From assembly GCA_038043445.1 (NCBI GenBank), contig JBBTBY010000022.1, forward strand, positions 1 to 59,468: 59,468 nt of DNA, given 5' to 3'. Source of the DNA: Spirochaetota bacterium. GTDB lineage: Bacteria; Spirochaetota; Brachyspiria; Brachyspirales; JACRPF01. Shown piece after piece: positions 28,632 through 40,746 of the stretch. The position numbers were made by a program, and so were the translations under genes. How positions within the stretch are numbered: the first letter of the stretch is position 1; every line of letters starts with the position of its first letter. Below the pieces are notes generated by a model. That model searched no databases. It was not told where the DNA came from and saw only the letters and a list, made by a program, of their open reading frames with translations.

Positions 28632-29552
28632 GTGAAGCATGAGAAGCACCGTGATTGCCTTATCCCTGCGTCATTCGACGAATTGTACGGGAAATACCGG
28701 GTCCGGGTGAGCACCGGCGCCTACTGCTCATTCTCCGAGCGCACGACGAATTCACCCCATCTTCATTCCGCATATCACGAGATCTGCTATGTGATATCCG
28801 GGCAGGGTGATTACTATTACGGCAACGACCACTATCCGCTTCAGGCAGGCGATGTGTTCATCGCCGATCCGGGCATCGTACATGAGATCACTTCGCACAG
28901 GACGAAAGACCTCTACCTCGTGTTCTTCACGTTCACCGTGACGCCCATCGAAGTCGCAGTATCCGAGCGCTTCGAGGACATGCTCCTCGATTCGTTCTTT
29001 GCCGCGCATACGATCGTCATACACGGGCGCGACGACATCATGCGGCTCCTCCCCGCGGCCGGCGTATCCGTGCGCGGCGGGAGCGGCGGCCAGATACAGA
29101 ACACCGTCATACGCACCATAGTGCTCGCGCTCATCGATGCGCTCACTCCTTCGCGCGTGCGCCCCGGTAATACGCAGACGGACCACGCAGTGCAGCGTGC
29201 GGTCGATTTCATCAGCGGGAACGTCCGCCGACACATCTCCGTGAAAGAGGTCGCCCTCGCCGCGGGAACGTCCGAACGCAATCTCCGCTACCTTTTCAGG
29301 CGATCGCTCGGCAAACGTGTCATCGATATCATCAACGAGCGGAAGATCAATCACGCGGCGCATCTTCTGTGCATGCACTTCAAGGTATACGAGATAGCGT
29401 CGGCCATCGGCATCGATGACCCGGCGCAGTTCACACGGCTTTTCAAGAGAACGTTCGGCGTTTCGCCCAAGGAATACCAGCGGACGAACGCGCCGGAGAA
29501 TTCCGTACGGCGGACAACGTTCGTCGCATCCATGGGGAGGCGGTATGCGTAG
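28632..29552 (+). CDS. AraC family transcriptional regulator (cupin sensor)
   Basis: This 306-residue regulator starts with GTG and has no Shine-Dalgarno sequence. The cupin sensor is at about residues 40-110 (HSAYHEICYVISGQGDYYY; GDVFIADPGIVHEI). The double helix-turn-helix is at about 190-290 (ISVKEVALAAGTSERNLRYLF; VYEIASAIGIDDPAQFTRLF; FGVSPKEYQR). It probably senses a small ligand and controls the divergent URO-D gene, itself, or the GGDEF pair that follows. Its stop lies 8 nt inside the first GGDEF gene, so the three genes form one transcript. Confidence 0.92.
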   Translation: MKHEKHRDCLIPASFDELYGKYRVRVSTGAYCSFSERTTNSPHLHSAYHEICYVISGQGDYYYGNDHYPLQAGDVFIADPGIVHEITSHRTKDLYLVFFTFTVTPIEVAVSERFEDMLLDSFFAAHTIVIHGRDDIMRLLPAAGVSVRGGSGGQIQNTVIRTIVLALIDALTPSRVRPGNTQTDHAVQRAVDFISGNVRRHISVKEVALAAGTSERNLRYLFRRSLGKRVIDIINERKINHAAHLLCMHFKVYEIASAIGIDDPAQFTRLFKRTFGVSPKEYQRTNAPENSVRRTTFVASMGRRYA

Positions 29553-30582
29553 GCATGTCATAACGATCACCATCGTCGCGGTCGCCGGCATCGTGTTCGC
29601 GGCGCTTAACGGCGTGTTCCTCTACCTCTATTCGGAGAACGCGCACCGCTATCCGTCGCTCGTAACGTCGCTCTCGACCATCTCGGCCCGGGTGCAGCGT
29701 GCGGCGAAATTGGAGCTCGCGGGGCTGCACGATGAAACGCTCGAAAAGGACATCGATGAACGCCTCTCCGTCATCCTCGAGGACCTGCGCCGCATCCGTT
29801 CCGCCGCCACCGATGAGACGCATGAGCGTGCGCTCGAAGTGAAGAAGATGTGGATCGACATCAAGGGTGCTGCCGCCGAGTACCGCGAAAAGAGGACGGA
29901 CACGGCACGCGATGCGCTCATGCAGGCGAGCGAAGAATATCCATCGACGCTCTCGAACGTTCCGGTGTCGCGCGCGTTGTCGGGCCGCATCTCGGTGACC
30001 ATCATGCTCCTCGGCGCGCTTATCATCGTCAACTCGTTCCTCATGTACATCGTCATCTGGCGGCTGCGCCTGCGCATCATCGATCATGTCACCCATTTCC
30101 TCACGCATGATCAGCTCACGGGAATACTCAACCGCGTCTCCTTCGAGCAGCTCCTCGACCGCGAGATAAGCGGCCACGGCGACCGGTATCCGGCGCACCG
30201 CTCATCGCTCATCATGCTCGATCTTGACTGTTATCTGCCGATCGTAAAATCCGCCGGGCGGGATGCCGCCGAGCGGCTTCTCAAGGATTTCACCGCCGTC
30301 ATACGGGCGCATATACGCCGCACGGACATCTTTTCCCGATTCACCGATGACCGCTTCGTGCTCGTTTCTCTCGGAAGCGACGGCGAGCGGGCATGCGCGC
30401 TCGGCGAAAAACTCCGCGCCATGGTCCAGGAACATTCATTTTCCGTCGGGCGTGCGGTCACCATGAGCGTAGGCGTGAGCGAGCTTAAGGCGGATGACAC
30501 CTCCGCCTCCGCGCTGTCGCGTGTGCACAAGGCGCTCTCGGAAGCACAGCGGGACTCCGGCAATAAGACGGTGCTGAAATGA
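29545..30582 (+). CDS. Membrane protein with degenerate GGDEF domain that keeps the I-site
   Basis: The ATG at 29545 follows GGGGAGG and gives 345 residues. There is a TM helix at about 6-28, an extracytoplasmic helical segment (about 30-150), a second TM helix (about 152-173) and a GGDEF-fold domain (about 185-345, starting THDQLTGILNR). The active-site loop reads RFTDDRF instead of RxGGDEF, and the GTP-binding motif FKxINDxxGHxxGD is replaced by YLPIVKSAGRDAAE, so diguanylate cyclase activity is unlikely. The inhibitory site RxxD is intact (RRTD, 5 residues before the loop), so it may bind c-di-GMP as a receptor. It is a paralogue of the next gene and overlaps it by 4 nt. Confidence 0.88.
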   Translation: MRRHVITITIVAVAGIVFAALNGVFLYLYSENAHRYPSLVTSLSTISARVQRAAKLELAGLHDETLEKDIDERLSVILEDLRRIRSAATDETHERALEVKKMWIDIKGAAAEYREKRTDTARDALMQASEEYPSTLSNVPVSRALSGRISVTIMLLGALIIVNSFLMYIVIWRLRLRIIDHVTHFLTHDQLTGILNRVSFEQLLDREISGHGDRYPAHRSSLIMLDLDCYLPIVKSAGRDAAERLLKDFTAVIRAHIRRTDIFSRFTDDRFVLVSLGSDGERACALGEKLRAMVQEHSFSVGRAVTMSVGVSELKADDTSASALSRVHKALSEAQRDSGNKTVLK

Positions 30583-31625
30583 GTGTGAACATGAAGTCCC
30601 GTTCCGTACATATCGTCATCATCGCCGTTCTTGCGGTCGTGTTCGCTCTCCTGAACGGCATGATGCTCGTACGGTATCTCAACGACACGAAGCATTATCC
30701 CGAATTCATCACCGCGATCGGCAGGCTGCGCGCCGGCATGCAGCGAAGTGCCAAGCTTGAGATGAGCGGCACCCGTGATGATGCGCTCCTTACGGCGGTC
30801 GATACCCTGCTCGAAACGATAGCATCGGAAAAGCGATCGCTCGGGGCGTCGAACCCCGCGATCGATCGTCATACCACCGAGCTCAAAGAGGCATGGGAGC
30901 GGATGCGCACCGCTATCCATGCGTTCCGGGAAAGCCCCACGGCGGCGAACCGCGAGGCCCTTCTCAGGGAGAGCGAATCGTATACGGATGCGGCCCGCGG
31001 GCTGTCGTTCGAGGCGCAGGCAATGGCGGAGAACTCCAGGCGGACGCTCGTGTTCTCCATCCTGCTCATGGCGTTCAATGCCGCAGCGCTTTCGGGCGCC
31101 GTCATCTGGATAAAGATACGTGTGACCGACAGGCTTGAGCATTCCGCGACGCATGACCATCTGACGGGCATCTACAACCGCCGCATCTTCGAACAATTCC
31201 TTGAGAACGAGATACGCATCTGCGAACGCCAGAACCGCGAGGGCTACCGTTCGGCGCTCATTCTGTTCGACATAGACCGCTTCAAGAGCATTAACGACAC
31301 GGAGGGGCACCCCGCAGGCGACGCCGTCCTTAAGTCCATTGCGAACACGGTACGCACCCGCATCCGCAAGGGGGATGTCTTCGGTCGTTTCGGCGGCGAT
31401 GAATTCGTCATCATTTCATCGGGGAGCGACGATAAGCGCGCGCTCGGGCTCATGGAAAAGCTCAGGAAATTCATCCGAGAGATACCCGCACATGAAAAGG
31501 TCGATGTAAGCGCCGGTGTGACCGAGCTTATGCCCGGCGATACGCCCGAATCGGCCCTTGCCAGAGTGGATAAAGCGCTCTATGCGGCGAAAGAGGACGG
31601 ACGCGGACGCACGGTACGGATCTGA
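30579..31625 (+). CDS. Membrane diguanylate cyclase (GGDEF)
   Basis: This 348-residue protein has the same layout as its upstream paralogue: TM helices at about 8-30 and 155-177 with an extracytoplasmic helical sensor between them. The GGDEF domain at about 190-348 has every catalytic motif: HDHLTGIYNRR, DIDRFKSINDTEGHPAGD, RFGGDEFVII. An RKGD inhibitory site lies 5 residues upstream of GGDEF. It should make c-di-GMP from two GTP at the inner membrane, with product feedback. The start overlaps the previous stop (ATGA). It ends 22 nt from the convergent transketolase stop. Confidence 0.95.
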   Translation: MSVNMKSRSVHIVIIAVLAVVFALLNGMMLVRYLNDTKHYPEFITAIGRLRAGMQRSAKLEMSGTRDDALLTAVDTLLETIASEKRSLGASNPAIDRHTTELKEAWERMRTAIHAFRESPTAANREALLRESESYTDAARGLSFEAQAMAENSRRTLVFSILLMAFNAAALSGAVIWIKIRVTDRLEHSATHDHLTGIYNRRIFEQFLENEIRICERQNREGYRSALILFDIDRFKSINDTEGHPAGDAVLKSIANTVRTRIRKGDVFGRFGGDEFVIISSGSDDKRALGLMEKLRKFIREIPAHEKVDVSAGVTELMPGDTPESALARVDKALYAAKEDGRGRTVRI

Positions 31626-33933: not shown

Positions 33934-36900
33934 TCAGGAGATCGAAAATTCCTTCTCGAGCAGCCGCTGCAGCAATGCGATACGGGCTATCGCCGAGCGG
34001 AGCGTATCATGCTCGAATTCGTTCATGCCCTTTACCGCGATACGATTATCCGGCTCGCGGCGTTCTCGTATGCATCGCATCTGATGACGGATGCGCATGT
34101 CCATGAGCGCGTCGTATGCATCGATGATGGCCTCACCATCGGAGGGCGCACAGATGCCGTTGTCCTTCATCCACGCGATGCGTGTACGCGTGTCCATAGC
34201 GGATAGCCCCGCATCAAGCGCGAACACACGCGCCGTATCCACCGCTGCGAGCATGATCTTCTTGAGATCGATGACATCGATACCGTCAACGGTCTCCGAC
34301 AAGAGCGCACCGAGCCCACCGACAGGAAGCCGCCGCCCATGTGCGATGCGCGCGAGGTGATGCATGAGCGGTTTTTTTCCGGGCAGGACACGCAGTATAT
34401 GCGCACGCAGATCATCGGCAAGGGCGCTCTCAGCGCTCACGGCGCGGAGATCGAAGAAAATGCTGAGATCAAGGATATCCTCGGGGTCGCCGGTCGCCGC
34501 CCACGCGGAATAATATTCCTTCCAGCGGGAAAGCGGTGCGCACCATCGTTCGCTCTTGGCCATGATGCGCCCGTCGCAATAGGCATATCCCGTTCTGTTA
34601 AGGAGCACGCACACGCGCTGACCGAGCTCCTGGAAATAGCCGCCGCTTCCGCCGTCCTGATATATTATCGCATTATCCTGATCGCTCACGAGCGTCTGCT
34701 CCCCGCGCGCAACGCTGCCGAGCGTTATGAACGAGTACGCGCAGGGAGGAGCGCCGACATCGGCTTCTGCGAGCGCGCAGTACCGTTCGATTATCGTACA
34801 GGCAACAGCGGTACAGATGCGGACGAGCATGCGCGGTGCGATGCCGGCATCACACTGCTCTCCGGCGATGAGCGGTAAACGGTCATGGAGCGAACGTATC
34901 TCTTCAGCGCTCCTTGCTTCCCGTATCGCCTGTATCAATCCTCCGGGTGATGTGTTCCGCCGCGACGGATCTCGATAGGACAAGCCGGTGACGCCCTGTG
35001 CACTGCGGAGGGCGACCCAATCCGTACGCCCCCTGTCCGCTGCGATATCGGCCTCGAACGCAAGCGCTCCCTCCGGCACGACGGCCACCGGCGCGCGCAT
35101 GATCTCATACGCAGCCGCATCATCCCCGCCGCGAGCGGCCCATTCTCGTATAGTACGATCGGTGATGATGCCGAGCATTGCCTGTTCTTCGCCGGCCACG
35201 ATGACCACGCCGAAATCGGACGCATCCATCTGCCGGACAATATCCTTAACGCGGTCGGTATATCGGACGAAAAGCGCCTGCGCACTTGCTGCGACCGGCA
35301 TGCACGCAGATACCGTACGATCATCGCCCGCGGGACCGTCGTGGCCTGTCGGCGAGTGATCATACGCGGTACGCGCCGGGGCATCGCCGGCCGCCGTGCT
35401 CCTGAGGATGATGATGACGCCGTCGCGGTCCGCGAACGACACCGGTGTTGCGATGACAAGCGCGTCGAACGGTATGCCGCTTTTTGTGCGTACGGGGGAT
35501 TCGAACCGTGCCGGCATGCGTTTCCCCGCTGCCGCCCAGGCGGATGCCGCATCAGCCGTGAAGAGACCATCGGGATCGAGCGCGGCGAATTCCTCCTCGC
35601 TCCACCCGAGCATGGTACGCGCCTGCGCGTTCGAGAATATGATGCTCTTCCCCGAGCACATGAGTATGCCTTCGGTGGACGCTTCGACGAGGAGGCGATA
35701 TTTTTCCCGTGCTGCACGGAGGCTCTCCTCGGTAAGCATCCTTCGGCGGTCCAATCTGAACCCGACGCGCGCAAGATAGGCGAGTATCAGCGCGACGATA
35801 ATGGTAATGCCGAACGAGATGAATATCAGCCGCTGTTCTATCCGCGCGATCTCGGCCTTCACATCCTCGATGTACATGCCGGTGCCGATTATCCAGCCCC
35901 AGGGAGCGAACCCTTCGACATACGAGAGCTTGGGCACAACGTTCGCCGGGTCATCCTTCCATTGCCAGCGGTAGTCGACATACCCGCCGCCGTTGGAACG
36001 AACGACCGCGACAAAAACATTGAAAAGCTTTTTCCCGCCGGGATCGGTGAAGCCGGCAAGATCGGTGTCGTTAAGGTCGGTGCGGTAGGGATGGATGATC
36101 ATGCGCGGGTGCATATCCGTTATCCAGAAATAATCCTTCACTTCCGGTCCATAGCGCATCTGTCCTATGAGCTTCGCCGCTTCACGGCGGGCGTCATCGT
36201 CTGTCATGCGCCCGGCGCGTGCATCCTTTTCAAGGCGTGTCGCCACGCTCACCGCAGAACGCACAAGCTCGCGTATCATCTCCCGTTTTCGGTCCATGAT
36301 GATGTCCTCGTATTTCGGTATGATGAAACCGAATATGAGCGCGCTGAAGAGCGACAACGCCAAAGCGGCGGGGAGCGCTATCTGCATCAGGAACGTGCGA
36401 AGCTGCTTGAGCGTCCCTGTGTTCGCTGATGATGACACGTTACCGAGCGCCGCGCGCAGCCGCCCCGCCTCTCGGCGTATGAGCTCGGCGGACATCTCGC
36501 GATACTCGAAGGAGATCGCCGGGACAAGATCGTGATCGGCACAGAGCCCGATGAAGCGGCGCAGTGCTGCATCACCGATCGGGTCATGCGCATCATCGGC
36601 ACCGTCATTCGTGTGGATATGGATGTGACGGATATGATGCGACAGATTGAGAAGCCATTCCTCGATGACCTGTTTTGAATTAAGGTGATGATGGCCGAGG
36701 TCAAGACAGATGCCGATGCGCGGGGAATCGACCGCGCGTATGAGCGAGAGGAGCGGCCGATAATCGTCCTCAAGCACGTTCTCAAGCGCGGCGGTGATCC
36801 CTGCCGATTCGATGTCGGTGCGGATGCCGCGCCAGAACTCGGTAAGCCGTTCGATGTCGCCGGGCGTGGAAGCCGCAGGATCGATACCGCTGTGAAAGAT

Positions 36901-37230
36901 AATGGTCGAAGCGCCGAGCGTCTTCGCTGCCGCGGTCATACGGCGGTAACGGTCGAGAAGCGTCTGCTCGCTGATGCTGTCCGCTCTCGGCGGGACGCAG
37001 GCATGGAACGCAACAGGGCCGTGAAAGCGTAGAAGCCGTTCACGATACCGTTCCGTTATCGATGCGGCGGCGTCATCGTCCAGGTTAAAGTGCAGAAGGT
37101 CCTGTATCTCGACACCGACGCCATGCTCGTCGAAATAGTAGGGATCGAACTGATCGATGCTTTGTACGGCGACAAAGATACGCAGATCGGAGACGGTCCT
37201 GCGATACTGATGATTGCGCACGGCCTTCAT
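33934..37230 (-). CDS. Fusion protein: AP-endonuclease-2/sugar-isomerase TIM barrel - TM - Cache - TM - PAS - CBS - DUF294 nucleotidyltransferase
   Basis: One uninterrupted 1098-residue frame. Residues about 15-262 are a xylose-isomerase-like barrel with its metal ligands in place (IIFHSGID, ALENVLED, CLDLGHHHL, HIHIHTND, HDPIGD, ISFEYR). A TM helix (about 278-302), an sCache sensor (about 310-455: YFWITDMHPRMIIHP, WGWIIGTGMYI) and a second TM (about 467-487) follow. Then come a PAS domain (about 505-612), one good and one degenerate CBS motif (about 650-750), and a GlnD-like DUF294 domain with GSVARGEQTLVSDQDNAI near 836-853 and its helical C-terminal partner (to 1097). DUF294/CBS proteins often accompany ActP-type symporters, and here the symporter operon lies just upstream. 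A separate promoter 11 nt before the ATG supports the start. Confidence 0.85.
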   Translation of the reverse strand: MKAVRNHQYRRTVSDLRIFVAVQSIDQFDPYYFDEHGVGVEIQDLLHFNLDDDAAASITERYRERLLRFHGPVAFHACVPPRADSISEQTLLDRYRRMTAAAKTLGASTIIFHSGIDPAASTPGDIERLTEFWRGIRTDIESAGITAALENVLEDDYRPLLSLIRAVDSPRIGICLDLGHHHLNSKQVIEEWLLNLSHHIRHIHIHTNDGADDAHDPIGDAALRRFIGLCADHDLVPAISFEYREMSAELIRREAGRLRAALGNVSSSANTGTLKQLRTFLMQIALPAALALSLFSALIFGFIIPKYEDIIMDRKREMIRELVRSAVSVATRLEKDARAGRMTDDDARREAAKLIGQMRYGPEVKDYFWITDMHPRMIIHPYRTDLNDTDLAGFTDPGGKKLFNVFVAVVRSNGGGYVDYRWQWKDDPANVVPKLSYVEGFAPWGWIIGTGMYIEDVKAEIARIEQRLIFISFGITIIVALILAYLARVGFRLDRRRMLTEESLRAAREKYRLLVEASTEGILMCSGKSIIFSNAQARTMLGWSEEEFAALDPDGLFTADAASAWAAAGKRMPARFESPVRTKSGIPFDALVIATPVSFADRDGVIIILRSTAAGDAPARTAYDHSPTGHDGPAGDDRTVSACMPVAASAQALFVRYTDRVKDIVRQMDASDFGVVIVAGEEQAMLGIITDRTIREWAARGGDDAAAYEIMRAPVAVVPEGALAFEADIAADRGRTDWVALRSAQGVTGLSYRDPSRRNTSPGGLIQAIREARSAEEIRSLHDRLPLIAGEQCDAGIAPRMLVRICTAVACTIIERYCALAEADVGAPPCAYSFITLGSVARGEQTLVSDQDNAIIYQDGGSGGYFQELGQRVCVLLNRTGYAYCDGRIMAKSERWCAPLSRWKEYYSAWAATGDPEDILDLSIFFDLRAVSAESALADDLRAHILRVLPGKKPLMHHLARIAHGRRLPVGGLGALLSETVDGIDVIDLKKIMLAAVDTARVFALDAGLSAMDTRTRIAWMKDNGICAPSDGEAIIDAYDALMDMRIRHQMRCIRERREPDNRIAVKGMNEFEHDTLRSAIARIALLQRLLEKEFSIS

Positions 37231-37240
37231 GATACGAAAA

Positions 37241-37268
37241 AGTATACGCCTTCGGAACGAAATAGCAA
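37241..37268 (-). promoter_or_regulatory. Promoter of the TIM-Cache-DUF294 fusion gene, 4-nt leader
   Basis: TTGCTA (37263-37268), a 16-nt spacer and TATACT (37241-37246). The predicted start point (37234) is only 4 nt before the ATG at 37230, so the mRNA is almost leaderless and has no Shine-Dalgarno site. Confidence 0.65.
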
Positions 37269-37290
37269 TGTCGTCAGCAAGCGCGCGGGG

Positions 37291-38916
37291 CTATTCCGCC
37301 CCGTGTCCGAGGTATGTCCTTAACTTTTCATCCTCGAACTTTTCCTCCGCCTTCTTTTCCTTCGTCACGAGCGACGCGACGATGCCCGCGATGAACGCCG
37401 CCGTCATTGAGATGATGGCCGGGTTCTTGAGCGGGAATATCGGCGATGGGTTCTTCATGATATCGACCCATACCGTGGGGCTCAGTATGATGAGCCCGAC
37501 CGAGAGTATCGCACCGGTCAGTATCGACCAGACCGCCCCGGCGGTGGTGAACTTTTTCCAGAGTATCGACATGAGAAGCGCCGGGAAATTCGCGCTGCAG
37601 GCGATGGCGAACGCGAGACCCACCATGAACGCGACGTTCTGCCCTTTGAAGAGGATACCGAGGAGCACCGCGATGATGCCGAAGATACAGGTGGCTATAC
37701 GCGCTACCCTGACCTGCTCTTTTTCGGTCGCCTTCCCTTTTTTTATCACATTGACGTAGATGTCATGTGAGAACGCCGATGCGCCTGCGAGGGTAAGTCC
37801 GGCAACGACGGCAAGTATCGTTGCGAACGCTACTGCGGCGATGAAGCCGAGGAACGGTGTGCCGCCGAGAAGTTCAGCCACAAGCGGTGCCGCCATGTTG
37901 CCGCCCTTGTCTATCTTCGAGATGATATCCCTTCCGACAAGCGCAGCAGCGCCGAATCCGACGATAGGGATGATTATATAGAAGTACCCGATGAAGCCGG
38001 TAGCGTAGAGCACCGACTTGCGGGCGGCCTTCGCATCGGGAACGGTGTAAAAGCGCATGAGAATATGCGGAAGCCCGAGCAGTCCGAACATGAGCGCGAG
38101 CCCGAGCGATATCGCATCGATCGGATTTGATATCAATCCGCCGGGCTCAAGTGCCGCCTGGCCGTACTGTGTCGCTACGGCGCCATAGAGCTCGCCGGGA
38201 TTGAAATGGAATTTCGCGAGAACGATGAAAGCGAGCACCGATACACCGAGGACGAGGAGCACCGCCTTGATTATCTGTACCCAGGTGGTGGCGATCATGC
38301 CGCCGAAGAGCACATACGCAAGCATGATGATGCCGACGATGACGGCGGCTATCTCATACGGAATACCGAACATGAGCTTGATGAGATTGCCCGAGCCGAC
38401 CATCTGTGCGATGGTGTAGAAGAGGACGGTCAGAATGCCGCCGAAAGCCGCGGCTATGCGAATGGGGGTGTTCTTCAGGCGGAATGCTACGACATCGGTG
38501 AACGTGAATTTGCCGAGATTGCGGAGCGGCTCGGCAATGAGGAACATGAGCGCGGGCCAGCCGACAAGCCAGCCGACAGCGTATATCATGCCGTCATATC
38601 CCTTGAGGGCGACAAGACCGGCGATGCCGAGGAACGATGCGGCGCTCATATAGTCGCCTGACAATGCGAGCCCGTTCTGGAGGGCGCTTACGCTTCTGCC
38701 CGCGGCATAATATTCGGAGGATGTTTTCGTTTTCTTCGCCGCCCAATAGGTTATCACAAGTGTAATGGCAACGATACCGAAAAAGAACAGAATGGAGGGG
38801 AGCGTGGGAGAGCCGAGCGTGGTAGCTTTCGCCGCTGGTGCGGCGGCGGCGGCGGCATCTGCGAACAGAGAAAGCGATGATATGCCGGCAAGTATGACGA
38901 AGAATGCCTTTTTCAT
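37291..38916 (-). CDS. actP: Sodium:solute symporter, ActP (acetate/monocarboxylate) subfamily
   Basis: The ATG at 38916 (GGA 8 nt upstream) gives 541 residues. The first 20-25 residues are a signal-like hydrophobic start (AFFVILAGISSLSLFADA), a hallmark of ActP, followed by about 13 TM helices. Family motifs include SSEYYAAGRSVSALQNGLALSGDYMS (quoted in two parts: SSEYYAAGRS and NGLALSGDYMSAASFLG), the sodium-binding region, and GLPHILMRFYTV. The family takes up acetate or other short monocarboxylates with sodium. It starts 4 nt after the DUF485 stop, the standard ActP partner. Substrate is inferred from family only. Confidence 0.9.
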   Translation of the reverse strand: MKKAFFVILAGISSLSLFADAAAAAAPAAKATTLGSPTLPSILFFFGIVAITLVITYWAAKKTKTSSEYYAAGRSVSALQNGLALSGDYMSAASFLGIAGLVALKGYDGMIYAVGWLVGWPALMFLIAEPLRNLGKFTFTDVVAFRLKNTPIRIAAAFGGILTVLFYTIAQMVGSGNLIKLMFGIPYEIAAVIVGIIMLAYVLFGGMIATTWVQIIKAVLLVLGVSVLAFIVLAKFHFNPGELYGAVATQYGQAALEPGGLISNPIDAISLGLALMFGLLGLPHILMRFYTVPDAKAARKSVLYATGFIGYFYIIIPIVGFGAAALVGRDIISKIDKGGNMAAPLVAELLGGTPFLGFIAAVAFATILAVVAGLTLAGASAFSHDIYVNVIKKGKATEKEQVRVARIATCIFGIIAVLLGILFKGQNVAFMVGLAFAIACSANFPALLMSILWKKFTTAGAVWSILTGAILSVGLIILSPTVWVDIMKNPSPIFPLKNPAIISMTAAFIAGIVASLVTKEKKAEEKFEDEKLRTYLGHGAE

Positions 38917-38920
38917 AGTG

Positions 38921-39226
38921 TTATCCTTTGACAAGCTTGGTTTTCAAACGTTTGACTTCGGGGTCATGGGCATTGTTCGCCCAAATGATATAGATGAACG
39001 TGAATATCCATGACAGCACAATAACGCCGATGCCGATGGGTATGCCGATAGTGGTGAACTTGGCTATCTTCTGAGACATCAGCGGTTTATTTACCGAGAT
39101 GAGGATAATGTAGCCGTAGTACAGGATGAATTCGAGGACGGTCAGCGTGAAGGCCACCATCCATCTGCTTTTGACAAGCTTCTTGAAGTCAAACGAGTCC
39201 AGCATTTTTTTTGCCGCAGCATTCAT
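38921..39226 (-). CDS. DUF485 membrane protein, partner of ActP symporter
   Basis: The ATG at 39226 has AAGGAG about 9 nt upstream and gives 101 residues; the frame extends further upstream, but that part overlaps the 5' leader. Two TM helices (MVAFTLTVLEFILYYGYIIL and IGIPIGIGVIVLSWIFTFIY) and the preceding KKLVKSRWM match DUF485 (YjcH type). DUF485 genes almost always precede ActP, as here with a 4-nt gap. The function is not established; a small subunit or assembly factor for the symporter is the usual guess. Confidence 0.88.
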   Translation of the reverse strand: MNAAAKKMLDSFDFKKLVKSRWMVAFTLTVLEFILYYGYIILISVNKPLMSQKIAKFTTIGIPIGIGVIVLSWIFTFIYIIWANNAHDPEVKRLKTKLVKG

Positions 39227-39319
39227 GCGATATGCTCCTTGCACCCATTGTGGCGCGTCGTAACGCAACGGCGTGCAATTGCATACGCATTTCTGCATCG
39301 CCCCGAACATAAAAAACGA

Positions 39320-39462: not shown

Positions 39463-40746
39463 TCAGCGCCAGTGCTTCTCAATAAGCTCGCGGAGTATGC
39501 GCACCGCTTTTCCCGGGCGGCTTTTCTCTCCGGAGATGGAATACACATCGCGGAATACAACCTCAAGCGTACCGCCCTTGGCCGCGGTCAGTGTTTTCGC
39601 CATATGCTCACGATATCGCGCTTCGTCAAAGGCACCGACACCGATGAGCGTCGGGTCGGGTTTCCGTGAGTAGATGATGCGTGAACCGCGAAGCCGCTCG
39701 CCCATGAAGTTCTCGTTGCACCATGCCGATATCGATACTTTGCGGAGATTCGGGAGCTTTGAAAGACAATCGTCCCAGATGGTGTGCACCGGCTCGCAGC
39801 AGCCGTAATAGACAAGCCCGCATTCGGCGGCAAGCTCGCGGTATGTGGGGAAGATGAGATCAGCGTACATGGACGGCGACACGGATATCGTTTCCTGGGA
39901 GTTCATGTTCACCCAGAGGTCAGAAAGTTTCACCCCGGCTGATACATCGTCTTTCGGGAGTTCATCGGTGAAGCCGTAGCTCCCGGCACCCGCGTACTGA
40001 TTGCCGTTGTTGAGCGTAAGGAGGCCCTCATACTCGAGCCAGCGAATGAAGCGCCGCGCATCGTCGCGAAGGAAGCGATAGAGATCGCGTACGGCATCGG
40101 GCGTGTCTATGAGCGCCATGCAATAGCGCTCCATGCCCATGAGCCGTATACACTTCGCGGAAATCCCCAGATACCAGTCAAGTATGCGATTGGTACGCCG
40201 AAGGGGGAGTATATCGCCGAGAACGTCTTCAGCGAAGGCCATACGCTGTGCCGCCATTTCTCGGTTCACTGAGAAAACGGACGGCTTGAGGATGTGAAAG
40301 TCGCGGATAAGGTCGGTGATGGGACTTTCATCGTGATAGCCGAGTTCGAGTCCGCGCGCGTCTTTTACCCGTGAGCGCGATATGTTCAGATCGAATTCTT
40401 TGAACGAAATATCCGCTTCATCAATGGCGAGCCATGGCGAGATGACCTTATCATCGTCGATGAGCTCGTGATTGAGTATCGGTTCGATGAGCTTACGCTC
40501 GATACGCGCTGCCTCGGGGCTTTCACAGCGGAGCGCAGGCAGGAAATCGGCGGCAAAAGAACCGACTTCCATGACTATCATGGGGCTGCCGGCCGATAGT
40601 GAATTATGCGCATACCAGCGCTTTTCACGTTCGGCCATCACGGGAAGCGCGGCATAGTCGCGGTACTTTTTCGCCAGATCGCGCAGATACACGCGTTCAC
40701 TTTCGGTTATGGTGAACATACTTGTTCGTTCCGCTGCTGCTTGCAT
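39463..40746 (-). CDS. URO-D-fold protein, second copy (CCEP subgroup)
   Basis: This 427-residue protein lacks similarity to HemE but has the layout of a distant URO-D subgroup: LVYYGCCEPVHTIWDDCLSKLPNLRKVSISAWCN (given in parts: YYGCCEPVHTIW near residue 313, then VSISAWCNENF), followed by YSRKPDPTLIG. The paired cysteines with His could bind zinc as in corrinoid methyltransferases. The function is unknown. The ATG is preceded by AAGGAGTTCCCC, identical to the site before the other URO-D gene at 28523. It is divergent from the AraC gene at 40843, so the arrangement of the first URO-D/AraC pair is repeated here. Confidence 0.7.
   Translation of the reverse strand: MQAAAERTSMFTITESERVYLRDLAKKYRDYAALPVMAEREKRWYAHNSLSAGSPMIVMEVGSFAADFLPALRCESPEAARIERKLIEPILNHELIDDDKVISPWLAIDEADISFKEFDLNISRSRVKDARGLELGYHDESPITDLIRDFHILKPSVFSVNREMAAQRMAFAEDVLGDILPLRRTNRILDWYLGISAKCIRLMGMERYCMALIDTPDAVRDLYRFLRDDARRFIRWLEYEGLLTLNNGNQYAGAGSYGFTDELPKDDVSAGVKLSDLWVNMNSQETISVSPSMYADLIFPTYRELAAECGLVYYGCCEPVHTIWDDCLSKLPNLRKVSISAWCNENFMGERLRGSRIIYSRKPDPTLIGVGAFDEARYREHMAKTLTAAKGGTLEVVFRDVYSISGEKSRPGKAVRILRELIEKHWR

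Follow-up and report, generated by a model that had tools for sequence, protein, structure and literature searches.

A Spirochaetota bacterium of the order Brachyspirales carries on contig JBBTBY010000022.1 (59,468 nucleotides, analysed here over its whole length and referred to as the window) a gene for an unusual membrane receptor, located at positions 33934-37230 of the minus strand. The gene is a single open frame of 1098 amino acids, running from ATG to stop in both the open reading frame list and the translation, and its product combines, in this order, an AP_endonuc_2 barrel, a transmembrane (TM) helix, an sCache_2 sensor, a second TM helix, a PAS domain, a weak CBS domain, a DUF294 nucleotidyltransferase and a DUF294_C domain. 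There is, in our estimate, an even chance that this chain acts as a transmembrane two-way nucleotidylation switch, in which the DUF294 domain would be the writer and the barrel, a predicted phosphodiesterase, the eraser, gated by a sensor for a carboxylate outside the cell. More tentatively, we propose that DUF294 receptors of many phyla are one-protein transmembrane enzymes which write and erase a nucleotidyl mark to control organic-acid symport, and that the eraser fold has been freely exchanged among PHP, calcineurin, DEDDh, endonuclease IV and perhaps DUF6915 domains; the window protein would then be the first example in which an endonuclease-IV-type eraser shares the chain.

One line of evidence is what the relatives carry in place of the barrel. 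Peptides from the window served as seeds for a pattern scan over 84,980 species genomes, which therefore samples this receptor type; it returned 75 relatives from Spirochaetes, Bacteroidetes, Ignavibacteriae, Kiritimatiellae/Verrucomicrobia, Actinobacteria, Acidobacteria, Hydrogenedentota and others, nearly all of which align from residue ~278 on, that is, without the barrel. In their N-terminal slot, relatives have either a PHP domain, as assigned by Pfam, or a 140-residue DUF6915-like domain, and the receptors with a short N-terminus adjoin a phosphoesterase gene encoding a calcineurin-like enzyme, an endonuclease-IV-like barrel or a DEDDh exonuclease (L078). A first impression that these short receptors are partner-less was overturned by the calcineurin phosphoesterases among their neighbours. 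Among 73 Cache-DUF294 receptors, PHP is fused in 31 and the DUF6915-like domain in 17, adjacent genes encode a calcineurin phosphoesterase in 13 cases, an endonuclease-IV-like barrel in four (L060, L063, L070 and L091) and PHP or a DEDDh exonuclease in one each, and one more endonuclease-IV-like barrel lies at 1.2 kb. A partner is fused or located within 450 bp in 67 of the 73 receptors (50 of 56 when DUF6915 is left out), with distances that are approximate, being taken between stop-to-stop frames, and rows that are not independent: L165 seems to duplicate L077, with which it shares frame length and scores, L035 hardly differs from L036, and a single sediment study supplied several of the metagenome-assembled genomes (MAGs). 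The profiles used to detect partners derive from genes initially recognised next to receptors and under-detect distant copies. In a Pfam background scan, free of that bias, 110 genes of these loci that do not adjoin a receptor were covered; no such phosphoesterase family is among the top 25 families listed with two or more members, which puts each at one gene of the 110 at most, and this sample itself contained the barrel of L052. In all or nearly all members, the PHP, DEDDh and calcineurin partners retain the residues that bind metal or take part in catalysis. DUF294 proteins that lack the Cache domain show a similar association: among 11 of them, a DEDDh exonuclease is adjacent to six and fused to one (L013), a DUF6915-like gene is adjacent to one, and in those of the window's phylum, where DUF294 occurs in only 18 of 393 genomes, the exonuclease is mostly directly downstream or fused. 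Several unrelated metal phosphoesterases sharing one slot of one transferase suggest that it is phosphodiester formation that has to be reversed or kept in check.

The barrel itself was assessed by aligning a profile of it and its relatives with Escherichia coli endonuclease IV (Nfo, L209) and the epimerase UlaE (L210). The metal ligands of Nfo, which we take from the 1999 structure to be H69, H109, E145, D179, H182, H216, D229, H231 and E261, were checked as residues in the alignment to the E. coli sequence, and all nine are kept in the window barrel (H76, H113, E150, D177, H180, H204, D213, H215 and E242), so that the complete nine-residue, three-metal set of endonuclease IV is present, whereas UlaE keeps five of the nine and has A, N, F and N at the other four. 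Such completeness is rare in the same genome, where only two of 27 alignable AP_endonuc_2 proteins, that of the window and L191, have all nine; the ligands are also all kept in the barrels encoded next to receptors of relatives. The nearest NCBIfam family is the phosphodiesterase CbiR, matched with 39 bits against an equivalog cut-off of 105 (NF041277), a fructoselysine epimerase model reaches 22 of the required 305 bits, and the curated Nfo models (TIGR00587) gave no match to the barrel at 1e-3. Ethylenediaminetetraacetate (EDTA) inhibits CbiR, and mutation of its conserved ligands removes the activity (PMC7733943). Since the endonuclease IV ligands are complete and CbiR is the nearest curated family, the barrel is predicted to be of the phosphodiesterase type, and the sugar-isomerase-like identity given in the original prediction is rejected by the ligand set and the curated models. 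The same models reject membership of the barrel in the endonuclease IV or CbiR families proper. An AlphaFold model of the barrel has the TIM-barrel fold.

Both halves of the transferase exceed their curated cut-offs by a wide margin (PF03445, 128 versus 21 bits; PF10335, 96 versus 22.5 bits), and the Pol-beta motif G838-S839 ... D850-Q-D852 is intact, as the original prediction had it, with G838, S839, D850 and D852 invariant in 12 relatives. DUF294 relatives are remotely similar to GlnE and GlnD, and no relative of solved structure turned up in PDB searches with the DUF294 portion. An sCache_2 domain between two TM helices, followed by PAS, CBS and DUF294, is the layout of the receptor family met in the scan, and PAS and CBS are present in the window protein as well, though weak. 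The Cache region resembles that of MctS (NCBIfam), the sensor kinase of a monocarboxylate transport system, and since the symporter encoded next to the receptor is also of the monocarboxylate class, the signal sensed is likely a carboxylate. Pfam, NCBIfam and the loci thus support, as had been anticipated, a receptor in the membrane that pairs a carboxylate-type Cache sensor with a nucleotidyltransferase and is linked to an SSS symporter. The accompanying claim that sensor and enzyme replace the CBS input did not hold, as the Cache-PAS relatives keep strong CBS pairs and the window protein keeps a decayed one. Equally, the architecture had been thought undescribed, and the exact fusion was indeed found nowhere else searched, but its sensor-nucleotidyltransferase part occurs in ~70 loci, with an SSS symporter near most receptors, so that the idea of a Cache domain joined to DUF294 only here is rejected.

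In the proposed mechanism, the Cache domain would bind a small carboxylate outside the cell and the signal would travel via TM helix 2, PAS and CBS to DUF294, which would add a nucleotide to another protein bound by DUF294_C, the foremost candidate target being the symporter encoded alongside or its DUF485 subunit. The N-terminal barrel, a putative endonuclease-IV-type metal phosphodiesterase residing in the same cytoplasmic compartment, would cleave the nucleotidyl bond again and would represent, from an unrelated fold, the counterpart of the uridylyl-removing HD domain of GlnD, its place in relatives being taken by the fused or adjacent PHP, calcineurin-like, DEDDh-exonuclease or DUF6915-like partners. 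GlnD provides the precedent, combining a pol-beta transferase with an unrelated HD phosphodiesterase on one chain under the control of sensors. DUF294 proteins are long-predicted nucleotidyltransferases for which the literature searched gives no product or target, and neither the Cache-DUF294 receptors nor the exchange of their partners is described there. If correct, the trading of places by unrelated phosphoesterases beside or on one chain would imply a phosphodiester product that needs to be undone, a membrane receptor would signal by reversible nucleotidylation instead of phosphorylation, and the loci would hint at a widespread on/off signalling switch beside organic-acid transporters. The window protein adds a new variant to a poorly known kind of protein, and it is chiefly of interest for the pattern across its family to which it led.

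Several observations weigh against this proposal. The barrel fusion is a singleton within the searched genomes, five of the 73 Cache-DUF294 receptors have no partner nearby, and the DUF6915-like domain, at most a candidate hydrolase, has a weak AlphaFold model (predicted local distance difference test score, pLDDT, 65) and no fold match in the PDB. A Foldseek search with the barrel model ranks sugar and ketose epimerases first, a result which holds at the fold level only and does not discriminate within the superfamily. No biochemistry was found in the literature searched for any DUF294 protein, and a phosphodiesterase partner fits a nucleic-acid or nucleotide product equally well. Moreover, the Pseudomonas fluorescens homologue Pflu5625, which has cAMP-binding, CBS and nucleotidyltransferase domains, belongs like actP to the acetate regulon controlled by CrbS/R, and deleting it hardly affected growth on acetate (PMC5715377).

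The main rival explanation, which we regard as rather unlikely, is that DUF294 adds to the 3' ends of RNA or produces a second messenger or oligonucleotide, which the partner phosphoesterase trims or destroys. Enzymes with 3'-5' exonuclease or 3'-phosphodiesterase activity occur in each of the DEDDh, PHP, endonuclease IV and Mre11/SbcD-type calcineurin families, which together with the DEDDh genes directly beside DUF294 genes is consistent with such a product, as is the placement of DUF294_C in the HEPN/KNTase_C clan (PMC3710099); yet the only family similarity found for DUF294 is to the protein-modifying GlnE and GlnD, not to RNA-acting transferases. It is improbable that the barrel is instead a sugar isomerase or epimerase making or sensing an intracellular sugar: the name of the Pfam family spans isomerases, the epimerases top the Foldseek list obtained with a model of moderate quality, and the genome has 28 AP_endonuc_2 places, but the full ligand set includes D213-x-H215 and H113, which UlaE is without, the best NCBIfam relative is CbiR rather than the epimerase, and phosphoesterases, not sugar enzymes, fill the slot in relatives. 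Very little probability attaches to a dead or ligand-binding barrel that would serve as an input domain tuning the transferase, for instance with a cobamide-like or nucleotide ligand; similarity to CbiR and the position at the N-terminus of a sensor protein would fit, but some loss of metal ligands would then be expected, and none is seen in the window or in the adjacent-gene barrels.

Least probable of all is a barrel without signalling role, brought in when a sugar-enzyme gene from next door was fused by accident or joined in assembly, although the fusion is a singleton in a draft genome (178 contigs, 5.1 Mb, 97% complete) rich in such barrels. On contig C22 of the whole genome, the same frame is found again without internal stop (open frame 1118), GC content and GC content at third codon positions (GC3) are alike across barrel, linker, receptor and actP, and inspection of the frame showed neither a stop nor a Shine-Dalgarno-like start between barrel and receptor; because of this evenness and the lack of such signals at the joint, nothing in the sequence points to an assembly join, and an assembly or frameshift origin finds no support. 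Furthermore, the same N-terminal position holds PHP or DUF6915-like domains in dozens of relatives, and barrels of the same class lie beside receptors in four loci. The unbroken frame with its sequence of domains, including the sCache between two TM helices, was confirmed by the open reading frame, the whole genome, Pfam and hydropathy; the possibility, raised as a refutation, that relatives encode barrel and receptor as two genes, joined here by error, was borne out in its first part by these four loci and not in its second.

In a tree of 67 receptors, the partner labels need 12 changes (minimum 7 for eight labels; shuffled mean 36), the DUF6915 fusions forming one group and the receptors with PHP, calcineurin or barrel neighbours several. 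The window receptor groups with PHP-fused receptors (SH-aLRT 88) on a long branch, which makes replacement of PHP by the barrel likely, within the limit set by the long branch, but not proven. In 393 Spirochaetota genomes, a barrel search brought up no further fusion, and the nearest free-standing barrels are single genes of ~250 amino acids; the exact architecture has no other case in the 75-locus scan or this Spirochaetota sample, and plasmid searches with the barrel and with the receptor yielded no full-length relative.

Some relatives deserve separate mention. The DUF6915-like domains of L081 (5557-5952) and L168 (6006-6353), fused to or directly following DUF294 proteins, have invariant H, D and E residues and may represent an undescribed metal hydrolase; the best DUF6915 match (2.7e-6) is to the free-standing gene in L168. 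In L057 (5115-5957), PHP has a frame of its own that immediately precedes and overlaps the receptor, reflecting either translational coupling or a MAG frameshift. L180 (contig C63 of genome G051) contains two Cache-DUF294 receptors on opposite strands and two SSS symporters in 16 kb, with no recognised phosphoesterase partner. Anaerolineae- or Thermoflexales-labelled contigs (L038, L039, L044 and L099) carry PHP-receptors nested among spirochaete ones, through either lateral transfer or wrong binning.

Features of the receptor gene and its symporter genes in the window.
Feature	Positions	Strand	Evidence
Whole gene, barrel-Cache-PAS-CBS-DUF294 receptor, 1098 aa	33934..37230	-	Open reading frame, translation, whole genome, Pfam
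AP_endonuc_2 TIM barrel, residues ~15-262, endonuclease-IV-type metal ligands	36445..37188	-	Pfam 4e-21 (residues 44-259); mapping to E. coli Nfo; TIM-barrel model, pLDDT 70
TM helix 1, residues ~280-302	36325..36393	-	Hydropathy peak near residue 286
sCache_2 extracytoplasmic sensor, residues 312-464	35839..36297	-	Pfam 6e-38; NCBIfam MctS sensor region 1e-23
TM helix 2, residues ~464-493	35752..35841	-	Hydropathy peak near residue 468
PAS, weak, residues 509-609	35404..35706	-	Pfam PAS_9, residues 520-609, 7e-6, slightly under cut-off
Remnant CBS, residues 653-697	35140..35274	-	Pfam 1e-3, under cut-off; strong CBS pair in relatives
DUF294 nucleotidyltransferase, residues 788-917, GS and DQD motifs intact	34480..34869	-	Pfam 3e-37; invariant columns
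DUF294_C, putative substrate-binding domain, residues 955-1095	33946..34368	-	Pfam 2e-27
ActP-class SSS monocarboxylate symporter	37291..38934	-	Pfam SSF 5e-102; NCBIfam ActP models below curated cut-offs
DUF485, small membrane partner of symporter	38921..39310	-	Pfam 8e-25

The genes for DUF485, the ActP-class symporter and the receptor follow one another on the same strand, with DUF485 and the symporter directly upstream of the receptor, which is flanked by the symporter and a transketolase gene and by no cobamide gene cluster. Between symporter and receptor (37231-37275, minus strand), sigma-70-like boxes TTGCTA and TATACT, 16 bp apart, end ~11 bases before the receptor ATG; with these boxes and no obvious ribosome site, the receptor is possibly expressed from its own leaderless transcript. 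Upstream of DUF485, an open reading frame of 427 amino acids (39463-40746, minus strand) matches no Pfam family at E-values up to 1. Elsewhere in the window (29416-31625, plus strand), two overlapping tandem paralogous genes encode membrane GGDEF-type proteins, the first with a degenerate motif (RFTDDRF) and the second with an intact one (RFGGDEF), which suggests a pair of an inactive and an active diguanylate cyclase. The PADLOC models of anti-phage systems gave no match.

Among known systems, the cyclic nucleotide (cNMP)-CBS-DUF294 proteins with a DnaQ-like (DEDDh) neighbour, which are encoded beside DUF4212/SSS symporters and for which Ruegeria TM1040 and Pflu5625 are examples, resemble the window protein in the DUF294-DUF294_C pair, the link to a symporter and the phosphoesterase partner, but they are cytoplasmic, with a cNMP input and a separate exonuclease gene, whereas the window protein has a transmembrane Cache-PAS input and an endonuclease-IV-like barrel on the same chain. 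A DUF294-dnaQ operon has been mentioned in passing for Bacilli (PMC3412718), and annotated plasmids carry comparable arrangements: DUF4212-SSS-DUF294-hypothetical-exonuclease in Ruegeria TM1040, DUF294 with an exonuclease in Hymenobacter and Vibrio pelagius, and DUF4212-SSS-DUF294 with no annotated exonuclease nearby in Skermanella. The pair on the V. pelagius plasmid (L214) adjoins kdgR, kduD and oligogalacturonate genes, and the DUF294-exonuclease module is therefore not tied to acetate only. Closer still are the PHP-Cache-PAS-CBS-DUF294 receptors of spirochaetes and other phyla (L034, L051 and L058), which share receptor and transferase over ~820 residues, the N-terminal metal-phosphoesterase slot and the symporter neighbour, and differ in that the slot holds PHP, a different fold, and that CBS is intact there and weak in the window. 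For the barrel, endonuclease IV shares the fold and all nine metal ligands but is distant in sequence, the window barrel being fused to a membrane receptor, and CbiR, an AP_endonuc_2 phosphodiesterase, is the best curated relative, although the window barrel falls below its cut-off and outside any cobamide gene cluster. Finally, GlnD has, like the window protein, a Pol-beta-type transferase, an unrelated metal phosphodiesterase and sensor domains on one chain, but it is soluble and uses HD and ACT domains, neither of which is matched in the window protein at E up to 1.

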